From Eubacteriales bacterium (GTDB lineage: Bacteria; Bacillota; Clostridia; Saccharofermentanales; DTU023): a stretch of DNA of 64,000 nt. The notes under the pieces were generated by a model. The model was not told the DNA's origin. It saw only the letters and a list, made by a program, of their open reading frames with translations, and made no database searches. How positions within the stretch are numbered: position 1 is the first letter of the stretch; every line of letters begins with the position of its first letter. Shown piece after piece: positions 6,126-22,280 of the stretch. The translations under genes were made by a program, and so were the position numbers. The stretch is taken from contig JAUNVU010000001.1 of NCBI GenBank assembly GCA_030537525.1, forward strand, positions 74,142 through 138,141, in the 5' to 3' direction.

Positions 6126-6158
6126 AGTTTTAGATACTTTTGTACCGTATAGGAAACT
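6126..6158. promoter_or_regulatory. Imperfect dyad in the divergent exporter/CvpA promoter region
   Basis: AGTTTTAGATAC (6126-6137) and GTATAGGAAACT (6147-6158) form an inverted repeat with a 9-nt spacer; 9 of 12 positions are complementary (outer AGTTT/AAACT and inner ATAC/GTAT). It lies between the divergent starts at 6079 and 6217. It could be an operator. No regulator is identified. Confidence 0.3.
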
Positions 6159-6175
6159 GCTTTTCTTTGCTCTTA

Positions 6176-6184
6176 TGCTATAAT
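6176..6184 (+). promoter_or_regulatory. Extended -10 promoter for the CvpA-like gene
   Basis: TGC-TATAAT at 6176-6184 is a perfect extended -10 element. No good -35 box is seen at the right distance, which extended -10 promoters can tolerate. It lies 33 nt before the start at 6217. Confidence 0.5.
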
Positions 6185-6216
6185 TCGAAAATGAGCGGGA
6201 AGGAGTAAAAATAAAA

Positions 6217-6894
6217 ATGATTATGGATTTAAGTCTAATCCTAATTTTGGCATTTTTTATTTACAGGGCCTTTCGGCGCGGTTGGCGCCATCAGACAGCC
6301 CTCTTTTTCAGCTCCATTCTTAGCGCAAGTCTGGCCATGGTGATAACTCCTGCTCTCAACGAAGTAACAGCTGCCTGGCTGAGTAAATTACAGCTTGGGC
6401 AAGCCTTTATAAGCAAGGTTCACGAACTAGAGTTTTCTGGATCTCAAAGTGGTTATCTAAAACTATTTATTGCGCTATTGGGAAAATCTGCAGGCATGGA
6501 CATAGATACCTCCTCCTTGCTTAATGAAAATTTAAAATTAGGGCAATTAAGTAATGCCAGTGGGCTGAATGCGCTTCTCACAAACTATCTTGCAAGCTGC
6601 ATTAGCTTCTTATTGCTCTTCTTCTTCACTCGATTAATTGTCTTATTATTTATCAAAATACTCAGCAGCGGACTTGATAAGGTAGAGGGCTTAGCAATAG
6701 CTAGACGTCTATTTGCAATACCACTGGGAATCATTAATTTCTCAGTCTTCCTCATGATCTTTGCCTTGATTGCTCCAGCTTTAGCGGTGGTCTGGCCACG
6801 CCTATCTACAATGTTTGACAATTCTTTTGCTCTACTTTTGATTTGGCGACTGAAGATCACACCTGCTCTCATGTCCTTAATTTTCACCAAATAA
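6217..6894 (+). CDS. CvpA-like membrane protein
   Basis: This 225-residue, strongly hydrophobic protein has about four predicted membrane helices (near 3-25, 30-50, 110-140 and 155-195). The first helix is followed by YRAFRRGWRHQTALFF, matching the Gly-x-Arg-(K/R)-Gly turn of CvpA family proteins. CvpA-like proteins are small inner-membrane proteins, named after colicin V production and of uncertain function. GGAAGGAG at 6198-6205 supports the ATG at 6217 rather than that at 6223. It has its own promoter and is followed by the groESL control region. The family call is reasonable but not certain. Confidence 0.6.
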   Translation: MIMDLSLILILAFFIYRAFRRGWRHQTALFFSSILSASLAMVITPALNEVTAAWLSKLQLGQAFISKVHELEFSGSQSGYLKLFIALLGKSAGMDIDTSSLLNENLKLGQLSNASGLNALLTNYLASCISFLLLFFFTRLIVLLFIKILSSGLDKVEGLAIARRLFAIPLGIINFSVFLMIFALIAPALAVVWPRLSTMFDNSFALLLIWRLKITPALMSLIFTK

Positions 6895-6934
6895 GCGACT
6901 TCAAAATTCTTCACAATTATGTCACTTCTTTAGC

Positions 6935-6963
6935 TTGACAAGGGTCATAGCTGCCCTTATTCT
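6935..6963 (+). promoter_or_regulatory. groESL promoter
   Basis: The -35 TTGACA (6935-6940) and -10 TATTCT (6958-6963) are 17 bp apart, a sigma-A type promoter. The expected transcription start is near 6970, at the left edge of the CIRCE repeat, the usual layout for HrcA repression. Confidence 0.8.
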
Positions 6964-6970
6964 GTGATAG

Positions 6971-6997
6971 CTAGCACTCTTCGACCAAGAGTGCTAA
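6971..6997. promoter_or_regulatory. CIRCE operator (HrcA binding site)
   Basis: The inverted repeat CTAGCACTC - 9 nt - GAGTGCTAA differs from the CIRCE consensus (TTAGCACTC-N9-GAGTGCTAA) only at the first base. It lies between the promoter and groES. HrcA represses class I heat-shock genes through this element; hrcA itself is not in the window. Confidence 0.96.
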
Positions 6998-7039
6998 AAA
7001 TTCACTGACTTCGTCAGTTATATGATCAGGAGGGTCTAA

Positions 7040-7330
7040 ATGAAAATTAAACCTTTAGCAGATCGCGTAGTAATTAAGATGCTAGAGACAGAAGAAACAA
7101 CCAAGGGTGGCATTGTTCTGCCAACCTCGGCCAAAGAGAAACCACAGGTAGCTGAGATCACGGCTGTTGGTCCAGGTGGTGTAGTAGATGGCAAAGATAT
7201 CATCATGGAAGTTGAAGTTGGCGACCATGTATTAATTTCTAAATATGCTGGCACAGAAGTTAAAATTGATGGCCAGGAATACACAATTCTCAGACAATCC
7301 GACATTTTAGCAATTGTTCAGAAGGACTAG
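7040..7330 (+). CDS. groES: Co-chaperonin GroES
   Basis: This 96-residue protein has the GroES fold motifs: [10 protein letters not shown] at the start, a mobile loop [12 protein letters not shown] at about 17-28 and a dome region VGPGGVV. It forms the heptameric lid on GroEL and is ATP-dependent with it. AGGAGG lies 9 nt before the ATG. It is followed 16 nt later by groEL in a bicistronic operon controlled by CIRCE/HrcA. Confidence 0.98.
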
Positions 7331-7343
7331 TATAAAGGAGTAG

Positions 7344-8966
<1,623 letters not shown>

Positions 8967-17274: not shown

Positions 17275-18036
17275 ATGGAGAATATTCTAGAACTAAGAGA
17301 AGTCCAAAAGGATTATAGAATACGAGGTCAGCAGAATGTGCTACCCGTCTTACGAGGTGTCAATTTAAGAGTCGCCCCTGGCGAATTCGTCGTCATCATG
17401 GGTGAGTCGGGTTCTGGTAAGACGACGCTTCTAAATATGGTCGCAACCCTCGACCAGCCAAGTGCTGGTCAGATCTTGTATGAAGGTAGCGACATTTCCA
17501 GACTGAATAATAGCGAACTTTCTACTTTTAGAAGGCAGAAGCTCGGTTTCGTCTTTCAAGATTACAACCTACTTGATCAATTTGATATCGCAGATAATAT
17601 ACGCCTTCCGATGATCCTTGAACGGATGGAGAGTGGTGAGCGTGAGCGCCGTCTACAGCACTTCATGCGGGCGCTGCGCATTGAAAATAAGGCGGACAAA
17701 TATCCCTACCAGCTATCTGGTGGTGAGCGTCAGAGAGTAGCCATTGCTCGCGCACTCGTGATGCAACCACTGCTCCTGCTGGCAGATGAGCCAACAGGCG
17801 CTCTAGATTCCCGCAATGCCGACCACCTATTAGAACTCTTCGAGGGTCTCAATAACAGCGGTCAAACTATTCTGATGGTTACGCACTCCATTAGAGCAGC
17901 AGCCCACGGTAAGCGCGCCTTGTTTTTAAAGGATGGCCGTATCTACTACGAGCTCTATAGAGGTAAGCAGTCAGTAAGTGAATTTAGAGAAAAGATTGCC
18001 GAAGCTATGGCTCTGCTCGACAGACAAGGAGTCTAG
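17275..18036 (+). CDS. Bce-type ABC transporter ATP-binding protein (BceA-like)
   Basis: This 253-residue ATPase has Walker A GESGSGKTT near 43-51, Q-loop VFQDYNLL, signature LSGGERQRVAIARAL near 143-157 and Walker B LLLLADEPTGALDS near 163-176. It is of the LolD/MacB type that pairs with FtsX-like permeases. With the next gene it should form the peptide-antibiotic sensor and resistance transporter read by the kinase upstream. ATG 17275 has GAAAGG about 8 nt upstream; an in-frame TTG at 17248 lacks an SD. Confidence 0.93.
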   Translation: MENILELREVQKDYRIRGQQNVLPVLRGVNLRVAPGEFVVIMGESGSGKTTLLNMVATLDQPSAGQILYEGSDISRLNNSELSTFRRQKLGFVFQDYNLLDQFDIADNIRLPMILERMESGERERRLQHFMRALRIENKADKYPYQLSGGERQRVAIARALVMQPLLLLADEPTGALDSRNADHLLELFEGLNNSGQTILMVTHSIRAAAHGKRALFLKDGRIYYELYRGKQSVSEFREKIAEAMALLDRQGV

Positions 18037-18037
18037 C

Positions 18038-20131
18038 ATGAGTAAGATTCGACTATATTTCAACCTGGCCAAGCGCAACTTCGCCGCCAATAAGCGCTTG
18101 AATGTGCCCTTGATCCTGGCAGCTTCGACTCTAATCCTGGTCTATGCCGTTTTAAACTCGAAGGTCGCCTCCTGGGACAGTGGCACACAGCGCCTCATCG
18201 CCACGCTTGGTAGCATTATCATTTTGGTATTTGCGTTTATTTTCATCAGCTTTGCTAGATCTTTCATCTTGAAACAGAGAAGTAAGGAGATGGGCCTCTA
18301 CGCCACCTTAGGTCTTGGCAAGGGTGAGTTCATTGCCATCTACTTCATCGAGCTAGTCTTTACCCTGATCTGCTCTCTCGTGGTCGGTATCTTGCTTGCC
18401 TTGCCGTCTATCCCACTGGCTAATTACCTCTTACAGAGGGTGGTAGACTTGCCATTGAAGCTCAGCTGGGGATTTTCAATGGACGTGGTTATCGAGATCA
18501 TCATCCGCTTTTCAATAGTCTTTGTCTTGGGCTTTATTCCAGAACTCAGAAAGTTACTCGTCTATACCCCGAAGCAGCTATTTGAACGGGATCAGCCAGT
18601 ATTTCGTGAGTTTAAAGGCAGACCAATCCTCTTCGTATTGGGAGTTGGCTTACTCGGTGGCGCCTACTATCTCTCATCAGTTATCGGAGATGCCGATAAG
18701 GATATAGTGATTGGTGCCTTTCTCTTCATGTTGGCAGTTATCATGGTCATCGTGGGTACTTATCTATTCTACTTAGCTGTAGTGCCAGCGGTGTTAAAAT
18801 TTCTGAAAAATCGCGATAGTTACTATCACAAGCCTGAAAACTTCATCAAGATCTCAGCCTTGTTATCGAGACTCGTAGCTCATGCGAGAGGCCTGGCTGA
18901 CATTACCATACTCTCCTGCATGATTCTTATGACCATGTTCGTCACAATTCACACCTTCCGGCAGCGACCCGAGGCCACTTGGTCAGAACTAGACGATCTA
19001 GGTTTATACTGCTACTCCTATGGTGTAAAAGGTGAGGAAGATCTAGAGGTAGATAGTCAGGCTCACAGGGCCTTGATGAAGGAAAAGGGCCTAGAGTTCT
19101 TGCTTAAACCGCAAGACAGTAAAAAGGCCGTTGAACTTACGAAAAACACTGTAGCCAAAGTCCACGACATTCCTGAATTTGAGGTCAAACCCCTAAACTC
19201 CCTGATTCTGAACGCCGAAGGCGAGAAGTTCTACCTAGTGCTAAATGAGGATTTAAACAAATTCTTCGGCGAACAGAAGTATCAAGGTTCAGGTTACTTT
19301 GGCAATTTCAGCACCCTCAAATTCCATACAAAAAAGTTTGCGAAAATTGCTAATCTGCAGGTAGCGGAGCTGGAGAGGCAGATACCAGATAGCAAGTCTT
19401 CATACGGCTTCGGTAAACTCTATCTCCATGTGCCGAAGGATCAGCTTGAGGAAACACTAGACCGCTTCTTGGCAGAAGGTCAGTTAGTGAATCAAATGGG
19501 CTTCAACACGGCGCTCAATATCGTACCAAAGTCGGCAACTGAGTTTAGCGTCGATGAGCTCAAGAGTATTCTGGGACAGCTCACTAATGAGGATATATCT
19601 GCCTGGCACAAGGCCTTACCAGGAGGGTATAGAATCTCTTCAATCTATCCCAACTCAGACAAGATTGACCATCACCAGATGAAGATCTATATGGCGGCTT
19701 TCCTCTATCTCGGTATTATCTGCTCACTGACCTTCTTTGTCGGCTTGTCCGTCATCAGTTGGTTCAAGCAGTATTCTGAGGCTGAAGTGGAGCGTTCAAG
19801 AGTGCAGATCATGGAAGAAATTGGTCTGCCAAAGAAGATCATCAGAAAATCGGTAAACAGCCAAATCTATTGGTTATTCCTGCTGCCACTATTTGTGGCC
19901 TATGTGCACTGCCTCTTTGGCTATTCTTACATCAAGCAACTGTTTAGCAAGATTTTCTATCTGACCGTTGACAATTACATTCTCAGAGGCTTGTGGCAGT
20001 CCTTCCTAATTGCTGCTGGTATCCTCTTTGTCGGCTATTTCTTAATCTACAAGCTGGCCACCAAAGCTTACTGGCGCAGTCTCCAGATCAACCGAGATCA
20101 GATTTTCGTCAAGAATTGGCGCGAACGCTAG
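18038..20131 (+). CDS. Bce-type ABC transporter permease (BceB-like, FtsX domains)
   Basis: This 697-residue permease has ten predicted membrane helices: about four near 15-170, then helices near 200-300, and three at the C-terminus (about 555-580, 620-645, 650-675). Between about 315 and 545 is a large extracytoplasmic domain without hydrophobic segments, as in BceB, which binds lipid-linked peptide complexes. FtsX-type segments flank it (FARSFILKQRSKEMGLYATLG early, EAEVERSRVQIMEEIG late). ATG 18038 lies one base after the BceA stop with AAGGAG 6 nt upstream. The likely ligand is a cell-wall-active peptide such as bacitracin, but specificity is not readable. Confidence 0.92.
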   Translation: MSKIRLYFNLAKRNFAANKRLNVPLILAASTLILVYAVLNSKVASWDSGTQRLIATLGSIIILVFAFIFISFARSFILKQRSKEMGLYATLGLGKGEFIAIYFIELVFTLICSLVVGILLALPSIPLANYLLQRVVDLPLKLSWGFSMDVVIEIIIRFSIVFVLGFIPELRKLLVYTPKQLFERDQPVFREFKGRPILFVLGVGLLGGAYYLSSVIGDADKDIVIGAFLFMLAVIMVIVGTYLFYLAVVPAVLKFLKNRDSYYHKPENFIKISALLSRLVAHARGLADITILSCMILMTMFVTIHTFRQRPEATWSELDDLGLYCYSYGVKGEEDLEVDSQAHRALMKEKGLEFLLKPQDSKKAVELTKNTVAKVHDIPEFEVKPLNSLILNAEGEKFYLVLNEDLNKFFGEQKYQGSGYFGNFSTLKFHTKKFAKIANLQVAELERQIPDSKSSYGFGKLYLHVPKDQLEETLDRFLAEGQLVNQMGFNTALNIVPKSATEFSVDELKSILGQLTNEDISAWHKALPGGYRISSIYPNSDKIDHHQMKIYMAAFLYLGIICSLTFFVGLSVISWFKQYSEAEVERSRVQIMEEIGLPKKIIRKSVNSQIYWLFLLPLFVAYVHCLFGYSYIKQLFSKIFYLTVDNYILRGLWQSFLIAAGILFVGYFLIYKLATKAYWRSLQINRDQIFVKNWRER

Positions 20132-20154
20132 GTCTTCAACAGAGTGTTAACTTA

Positions 20155-20183
20155 CTCCGCCTCCTGTAAAATAGGAGGCGGAG
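20155..20183 (+). promoter_or_regulatory. 11-bp GC-rich hairpin containing the rsmE Shine-Dalgarno
   Basis: CTCCGCCTCCT (20155-20165) pairs perfectly with AGGAGGCGGAG (20173-20183) around a 7-nt loop. The right arm holds AGGAGG and most of the overlapping GGAGG that would serve rsmE translation from 20191. The hairpin could sequester that SD. It could also work as a weak terminator for the permease gene, since GTTTCTT follows. Confidence 0.7.
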
Positions 20184-20190
20184 GTTTCTT

Positions 20191-20949
20191 CTGCCGAAAT
20201 TTTTCTATGCCGAAGTTTTAAGCCCAGGAGCTGTATTCCGGCTGTCGGGCGAGAATGATTTAAGCCACCTACAGAAGGCCAGGCGGATTTCGGAGGGCTC
20301 GCTGATCGAAGTCTACGATGCTGCTGGCTCATTGTGGCAGGCCAAATGCCTCGAGACAGTACCCGCCCAGTTCATAGAGTTAAGGGCAGAGGAGAGGCTT
20401 AGGGTAGTGTCAGAAGCCAAGATCAGACTAAGTCTCTATCAGGCCTTGCCACAGGGTAGTAAGTTCGACTTAGTATTGGAACTGGCAGGTAGTTATGGGG
20501 CTGCAAATGTTGTGCCAATAATCACTGAAAAATCTCTATTTAAGATGCCAAATAGGGATATAAGTGGCAAGTACAGTCGCTGGCAGAAGATCTTGGAAGC
20601 TCAGTCTAAGCAGACGGGGCGTGCTACGGTGACAGAGCTTTTGCCAATTTGTGATTTGGCAAACCTGGCAAAAGCCGAACTTGATCATGACCTTATGATC
20701 TTTGGCCACTTCTCACCAGAGGCTGCAAGTCTTCGCAATTATTTGGCAGAGCATAAGGAGCGAATTAACGAATCAGCAAGCCTATCTATGGGTCTATTTG
20801 TCGGCCCTGAAAGTGGGTTTACGCAGGCTGAGGCGGAGTTGCTGAAGAAGCTTGGGGCTACTGAAGTGAGCTTTGGGCCTAGAGTTTTGAGAAGTGAGTT
20901 GGCTGCTAGCTTTGTACTCGCCAGTTTAACTTATCTCGAACTCATTTAA
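20191..20949 (+). CDS. rsmE: 16S rRNA (uracil-1498-N3) methyltransferase RsmE, apparent CTG start
   Basis: The C-terminal SPOUT domain is clear: LFVGPESGFTQAEAELL and FGPRVLRSELAASF form the SAM-binding knot. The frame stays open upstream to 20170, and translation from 20191 begins with PKFFYAE, matching the PUA-like N-terminus of RsmE (usually MPRFFV or similar). There is no ATG, GTG or TTG in frame before a TTG at 20332, which would delete that domain. A CTG at 20191 with GGAGG 6 nt upstream is therefore the best start, giving 252 residues, the normal family length. RsmE methylates U1498 of the 30S decoding region. The SD lies within a hairpin. Confidence 0.85.
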   Translation: MPKFFYAEVLSPGAVFRLSGENDLSHLQKARRISEGSLIEVYDAAGSLWQAKCLETVPAQFIELRAEERLRVVSEAKIRLSLYQALPQGSKFDLVLELAGSYGAANVVPIITEKSLFKMPNRDISGKYSRWQKILEAQSKQTGRATVTELLPICDLANLAKAELDHDLMIFGHFSPEAASLRNYLAEHKERINESASLSMGLFVGPESGFTQAEAELLKKLGATEVSFGPRVLRSELAASFVLASLTYLELI

Positions 20950-21008: not shown

Positions 21009-22280
21009 ATGCAGATCAAGGCTCCTAAAGGTTGCCGCGATATCTATGGAGTTGAGGCTGGCCAACTGCAATATCTCGAGCGCGTGTATTACGATTTGGC
21101 CAAGAAATTTGGCTTCCAAGAGATCCGAGTTCCGACCTTCGAACAGACTGAGCTGTTTCAGCGCGGTGTCGGAGAAACTACGGATATAGTTAATAAAGAA
21201 ATGTACACTTTCGAGGACAAGGGTGGTCGGTCCATGACTTTGCGGCCAGAAGGGACGGCACCTGTTGTCAGGGCCTATCTTGAGCATGGCATGGCTAATT
21301 TGCCTTCTCCGCTCAAGCTGTTTTACAGCATGAATGTCTTTCGCTATGAGCGTCCGCAGAAGGGTAGATATAGGGAATTCCAGCAATTCGGCATGGAATT
21401 AATCGGGGCTAGTGGTGCTTTGGCTGAGGCCGAGATACTGAGTTTTCTCGATAGTTTTTTCAAGAAGCTTGGACTAGTTGACTATCAGCTGGCCTTAAAT
21501 TCACTCGGTTGCAATGCATGCCGTAGTGCATATAACGAGAAACTTAAAGATTATCTGGTGGAACACAGTTCAGAGCTCTGTCCAGACTGTGTAGGAAGGT
21601 CTCAGCGTAACCCACTACGCTGCTTGGATTGCAAGAATCCGAATTGTGCGCCTGTTTTAAATTCGGCTCCACTACCAGCAGATTTGCTATGTTCAGATTG
21701 CCAGGCAGAATTTACTAAACTTCTTGCGGCCCTAGATCAATTGGGTATCAATTATTATTTGGCGCCACGTCTGGTTCGCGGCCTAGATTATTACACTGGG
21801 ACGGTTTTCGAATTTCAATCTGATAAGCTCGGAGCACAGACAGCAATACTTGGTGGTGGTCGCTACGATAAGCTTATTGCTGAGCTTGGAGGTGAGCCAA
21901 CGCCTGCTGTAGGTTATGCCTTTGGGGTCGAGCGGCTTAGGTTGGAGTTAGAAGCTGGCGGGCTTTTGCCAGAGTTTCAGCCAAGAGCTGATCTCTCTAT
22001 TGTCTCGTTTGCAGATACAGGAGTTGAAGCACTTGTGCTAGCTAATAATTTGCGAGCTGCAGGGCTGGTCGTGGACTGTGATTTAATGGGCCGGAGTTTC
22101 AAGGCTCAGATGAAGCAGGCCAATCGTCAGGGAGCGAGATATCTTCTGGTGCTCGGAACAGATGAATTGCAGGCCGAAGAGGTCGAAATTAAGCGTCTTT
22201 CGGATGGCAGTACTGCAATGGTGTTGAAATCAGAAATTACTAAATATATAAAGCAGTCGGAGGAAGCAAATGGCAGATAG
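21009..22280 (+). CDS. hisS: Histidyl-tRNA synthetase
   Basis: This 423-residue class II synthetase starts KAPKGCRDI. Motif 2 is in GRYREFQQFGME, the histidine-specific motifs are LVRGLDYYTGTVFEF (about 255-270) and the motif 3 region GVERLRLEL. A Cys-rich insertion (C-x2-C pairs near 171-240) matches that of many HisRS. The C-terminal anticodon-binding domain spans about 325-415. AGGAGG precedes the ATG. The last 11 nt overlap aspS, so the two are co-translated. Confidence 0.97.
   Translation: MQIKAPKGCRDIYGVEAGQLQYLERVYYDLAKKFGFQEIRVPTFEQTELFQRGVGETTDIVNKEMYTFEDKGGRSMTLRPEGTAPVVRAYLEHGMANLPSPLKLFYSMNVFRYERPQKGRYREFQQFGMELIGASGALAEAEILSFLDSFFKKLGLVDYQLALNSLGCNACRSAYNEKLKDYLVEHSSELCPDCVGRSQRNPLRCLDCKNPNCAPVLNSAPLPADLLCSDCQAEFTKLLAALDQLGINYYLAPRLVRGLDYYTGTVFEFQSDKLGAQTAILGGGRYDKLIAELGGEPTPAVGYAFGVERLRLELEAGGLLPEFQPRADLSIVSFADTGVEALVLANNLRAAGLVVDCDLMGRSFKAQMKQANRQGARYLLVLGTDELQAEEVEIKRLSDGSTAMVLKSEITKYIKQSEEANGR

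Follow-up and report, generated by a model that had tools for sequence, protein, structure and literature searches.

An apparent CTG start codon for rsmE, with its Shine–Dalgarno sequence in the arm of a terminator-like hairpin

The window, by which we mean the whole 64,000-nucleotide stretch of DNA analysed, carries rsmE between an ABC transporter permease gene and hisS (Table 1). The order ABC ATPase–permease–rsmE–hisS–aspS is kept in a congener, the one other genome of the genus compared (JAUNVR010000003.1, loci L003 and L022). Between the permease and rsmE lies a hairpin with the arms CTCCGCCTCCT (20155-20165) and AGGAGGCGGAG (20173-20183) around the loop GTAAAAT (20166-20172), beginning 23 nt after the permease stop codon (TAG, 20129-20131). 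The nearest in-frame stop codon upstream of rsmE is TAA at 20167-20169, and the codons that follow it are AAT AGG AGG CGG AGG TTT CTT CTG CCG.

Table 1. Features at the rsmE locus, in positions of the window.
Feature	Position	Strand	Basis or remark
Upstream ABC transporter permease ORF	17978..20131	+	ORF list; same gene and order in the congener (L022)
Perfect 11-bp hairpin; most likely intrinsic terminator of the permease operon	20155..20183	+	23 nt after stop, T-rich tail
Loop sequence TAAAAT, possible -10 box	20167..20172	+	Weak, no good -35 box; inferred
AGGAGG, SD-like, in the hairpin 3' arm	20173..20178	+	Sequence; 12 nt before CTG
GGAGG, SD-like	20180..20184	+	CTG follows after 6 nt; last G one base past the perfect stem, other four bases in the 3' arm
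rsmE, predicted 16S rRNA m3U1498 methyltransferase	20191..20949	+	252 codons plus stop; PF04452, TIGR00046, RsmE structures
CTG, inferred rsmE start codon	20191..20193	+	Aligns with orthologue ATG; sole such case in orthologue census
TTG, first usual in-frame start of rsmE	20332..20334	+	Would cost 47 residues of the PUA-like domain
hisS, downstream of rsmE	21009..22280	+	ORF list; same order in the congener

Read from the CTG, the rsmE product matched PF04452 (E 8.8e-31; 107.2 bits against a cut-off of 23.9) and TIGR00046 (116.7 bits against a cut-off of 41) in profile searches. Its SPOUT methyltransferase domain is thus above the cut-off, and by these domain matches it is a predicted member of the RsmE family. 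The N-terminal PUA-like domain is complete only if the protein starts at CTG 20191, as judged from the alignment and from an AlphaFold2 model (mean pLDDT 81.9): in the model, residues 1-47 form three strands (3-5, 15-18 and 38-42) and one helix (21-30) of the N-terminal domain, all of which precede residue 48, the one encoded by TTG 20332. The best PDB matches of the model are RsmE-family structures over the full length; their TM-scores are modest, near 0.6, perhaps owing to a different placement of the two domains. The alignment with E. coli RsmE begins at residue 2, and E207, K91 and R234 are kept as the counterparts, in our own alignment, of Lpg2936 Glu198, Arg93 and Arg225, with lysine (K91) where Lpg2936 has Arg93. 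Domains, motifs and fold are common to the window's RsmE and to family members such as E. coli RsmE (4e8b), Lpg2936 (5o95) and Thermus TTHA0657, from which it differs in its start codon and in having GPESG for GPEGG.

Neither the sequence nor the ORF list has an ATG, GTG or TTG in the rsmE frame between the stop at 20167 and TTG 20332. The congener's RsmE, 37-38% identical to the window's, begins ATG CCA AAG TTT TTT and aligns gap-free with CTG CCG AAA TTT TTC in the window, so that MPKFFIADLL faces LPKFFYAEVL. At the level of the order, all 26 parsed RsmE loci (26/26) have ATG directly before a [PTVS]R-x-F-like motif (PK in the congener); three further loci (L011, L013 and L018) have ATG at the codon aligned with CTG 20191, four (L014-L017) have it two codons upstream of that position, and none of the loci compared starts near residue 48. 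In a ten-sequence alignment P2, F4, F5, H26, R32, G36 and D43 are invariant, and all seven lie upstream of TTG 20332. Because same-genus and order-level proteins have ATG at the motif, no homologue compared starts near residue 48 and the N-terminal residues are invariant, CTG 20191 should be the point where the RsmE protein begins, with (M)PKFFYAEVLSPGAVFR as the N-terminus expected after an initiator methionine. TTG 20332 is excluded for an intact protein, since the invariant residues and several structural elements lie upstream of it. The 6-nt spacing between GGAGG and the CTG is good. The locus thus has what defines a non-canonical CTG start: no usable ATG, GTG or TTG, a conserved N-terminus that begins at the CTG, and an SD at a proper distance. 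The congener has ATG in place of the CTG and so does not lend the support, helpful though not strictly required, of the same codon in another species. Taken alone, we regard a CTG start of rsmE as likely.

The preliminary description had proposed that translation upstream of TTG 20332 restores the PUA-like N-terminus of RsmE, which the invariant residues and the model bear out, and that only CTG 20191 is a plausible initiator, which is probably right. Two checks that it had suggested, whether related RsmE proteins are conserved from the CTG onward and whether close relatives use ATG at the same place, came out in its favour in the alignments, and homologues starting near the TTG, which it had named as a refutation, did not turn up among the loci compared. 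Three other starts were considered and set aside: ATG 20207, which is in the wrong frame and gives MPKF followed by a stop; a -1 shift at the same ATG, which would yield MPKFLSPG and is ruled out by the gap-free alignment with the congener as far as FYAEVLSPG; and a start further upstream, as in the MSLPR-type homologues (L014-L017), for which the frame upstream of the CTG runs into the stop at 20167 without a usual start.

We then compared starts across 727 kb of the window's genome and 1.07 Mb of the congener, taken as stretches, with 411 non-overlapping reciprocal-best ORFs as the comparison set. About 185 orthologue starts pair two ordinary start codons. Only at rsmE does an ATG start of the congener align with a non-canonical codon that lacks any usual start for tens of codons around it; the remaining mismatches concern internal codons or have an ordinary start close by, and most other candidates were alignments that extend past an ordinary ATG into overlapping sequence upstream of it. 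CTG starts are rare, as the preliminary description had said: between close relatives, only 2 of 61,358 ancestral AUG starts had switched to CUG (PMC5622118), and a real ATG-to-CTG switch is therefore rare, yet possible over the larger distance here. CUG initiation complexes are also less stable (PMC11497404). Established non-canonical starts include ATT/ATC in infC, which encodes IF3 and is subject to IF3 autoregulation, and GTC in Streptomyces sigR (PMC5472188). Like rsmE here, infC is a conserved translation-machinery gene with a start that IF3 should disfavour, but it has a non-canonical start in many bacteria, whereas the rsmE CTG has been seen in a single genome; sigR shares with rsmE a start missed by ordinary start-codon sets and low expected translation, but its start, unlike that of rsmE, is conserved across Streptomyces, and it has been tested experimentally. 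In the congener, the conserved N-terminus of infC (L149) has no ATG, GTG or TTG nearby, and an AAGGAGG lies ahead of ATT/ATC, consistent with the classic case of IF3 autoregulation; non-standard starts therefore occur in the genus. No infC was found in the window's genome, the assembly of which is incomplete.

Two other genes of the window's genome appear to be interrupted. A D-alanyl-D-alanine carboxypeptidase-like gene (L043; contig C14, about 6145-7796) has an in-frame TGA right after the signal peptide (...SASPKAYG*GPRPTD...) with an intact frame downstream, which may be a recent nonsense mutation, an error or a case of readthrough. A D-2-hydroxyacid dehydrogenase gene (L027; contig C9, 28222-29158) has an in-frame TAA where the congener has Trp, lacks its N-terminus and is pseudogene-like.

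The CTG could be explained by a single base, A to C, that is wrong or polymorphic: the true base at 20191 would be A, giving an ATG start, and the CTG would come from a mistake in the consensus or from a minority strain, the assembly being metagenome-like. With 28 contigs and 69% completeness the assembly is fragmented, and it has apparent nonsense lesions in two other genes; one of these, with TAA at a Trp position and the N-terminus missing, nevertheless has the look of a real pseudogene and not of a read error, and screening for lesions gave no frame-shifted orthologue pairs in the window's genome. We consider such an error or variant unlikely. A different possibility is that rsmE is dying after the loss of its start, an event so recent that the frame is still open. 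Among the 38 genomes of the family, PF04452 was detected in both members of the window's genus and in none of the other 36, a pattern that points to loss of m3U1498 methylation in the latter; the enzyme is therefore dispensable in that family, and this keeps a dying rsmE in play, as do the pseudogene-like lesions elsewhere in the genome and the lowered expression to be expected of both a CTG and a buried SD. However, the 252 codons are intact and the motif residues kept, and rsmE decays no faster than its orthologue in the congener: 42 of 78 outgroup-invariant columns are broken in the window's RsmE versus 40 of 78 in the congener's, so these conserved columns give no sign of relaxed selection. 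Moreover, as non-canonical starts go, a CTG behind a strong SD is one of the milder outcomes, which also argues against decay, and we hold this second alternative to be quite unlikely.

The preliminary description had placed AGGAGG and an overlapping GGAGG in the right arm of a perfect 11-bp stem, and the sequence confirms this, with the last G of GGAGG beyond the stem. The hairpin has a predicted energy of -23.3 kcal/mol, the surrounding region (20132-20230) has a folding z of -4.2 relative to shuffles, and perfect stems of at least 11 bp with loops of 3-10 nt number 2 in the window compared to 3 in 20 shuffles together; the hairpin is therefore not a chance feature. It has the GC-rich stem (8 of 11 pairs are G-C) and the T-rich tract shortly after a stop codon that define an intrinsic (Rho-independent) terminator, with 5 T in the 8 nt that follow (GTTTCTTC) and an interrupted T tract (GTTTCTTCTG). 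Such strong hairpins are ordinary in the window's genome, in which 61 with stems of at least 8 bp occur 0-90 nt after an orthologue stop codon, at a median distance of about 23 nt, and the commonest T count in the next 8 nt is 5, equal to that upstream of rsmE. An E. coli terminator 28 bp after a stop codon gave about 90% termination (PMC4824070), so a distance of 23 nt should suffice. A predicted terminator of the upstream permease operon, whose 3' arm incidentally provides the SD of rsmE, is hence the more likely nature of the hairpin. The congener has a different terminator-like hairpin (-25.1 kcal/mol) between the two genes, some 80 nt ahead of the rsmE ATG.

In the predicted folding of RNA reading through from the permease, the first four positions of GGAGG are paired with a probability >0.98, and opening 20173-20193 costs 23.7 kcal/mol, compared to 7.3 kcal/mol at the congener's site; translation of rsmE from such RNA would therefore be blocked, whereas in a transcript from 20179 the cost falls to 8.7 kcal/mol, similar to the congener. 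These values, and the fact that rsmE is the only case found in the window's genome of an SD in a 3' arm before a credible gene start, are what might be expected of a hairpin that exists to sequester the SD and regulate rsmE translation. Against this stand its terminator-like position and tail, its lack of conservation in the congener, the 23 nt to the upstream stop codon, which leave no room for a switching leader, and a stability far too high for graded control without a helper, and a regulatory purpose is decidedly improbable. Among 141 hairpins of the window's genome and 240 of the congener (727 kb and 1.07 Mb), no other SD lay in a 3' arm before a credible gene start, two further pattern matches having TTG starts that looked spurious; this is therefore not a regulatory device used repeatedly here. 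Riboswitch-type hairpins also join termination with SD sequestration and so resemble the one upstream of rsmE, in which a single hairpin overlaps terminator function and SD, but the latter has no upstream aptamer or antiterminator and appears to belong to the preceding operon. A riboswitch, structured leader or known RNA family was discarded, as there was no Rfam match at E up to 1 and only 23 nt separate the upstream stop from the hairpin. Of the low, structure-controlled expression put forward in the preliminary description, the block to read-through translation is upheld by predicted folding; the hairpin as a device for controlling rsmE is not.

We thus lean towards a CTG start that has replaced the ancestral ATG at the same codon, together with a hairpin that is an intrinsic terminator of the preceding permease gene and whose 3' arm doubles as the SD of rsmE. 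Translation from CTG 20191 would probably be weak and would depend on the strong SD AGGAGGCGGAGG ending 6 nt upstream. In RNA reading through from the permease this SD would be locked and translation nearly nil, probably as a by-product of the hairpin, and productive rsmE mRNA would probably have its 5' end within the hairpin or immediately downstream of it, with the loop TAAAAT as a possible promoter element. A promoter at TAAAAT, possible but weak, would leave the hairpin out of the rsmE mRNA; near rsmE no promoter-like site, TAAAAT included, reached 9 of 12 matches. So understood, rsmE is a further case of known kinds, namely rare non-canonical starts and a terminator overlapping a neighbour's signal, with a ribosome-binding site that, if this is true, is shared with the neighbouring terminator and insulates the gene from read-through translation. 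Annotation limited to ATG, GTG and TTG would place the rsmE start at TTG 20332, losing 47 residues of the RNA-binding domain, or would report a truncated gene. Conserved bacterial genes with well-supported CTG starts are few, so that a case which can be compared with an unambiguous ATG orthologue has value for tests of start-codon evolution and of annotation.

RsmE methylates U1498, near the initiation (P) site of the ribosome. It is conceivable, though very improbable, that the CTG lets initiation fidelity set RsmE levels, through IF3 or through unmethylated 30S subunits should these be more CUG-tolerant, with the upstream terminator insulating the gene; if true, this would be infC-like feedback for an rRNA methylase. 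Finally, 20191-20222 contains a near-repeat, CTGCCGAAATTTTTCT and ATGCCGAAGTTTTAAG, whose second copy is the out-of-frame ATG mini-ORF (MPKF, stop) and resembles the RsmE N-terminus, probably by coincidence.
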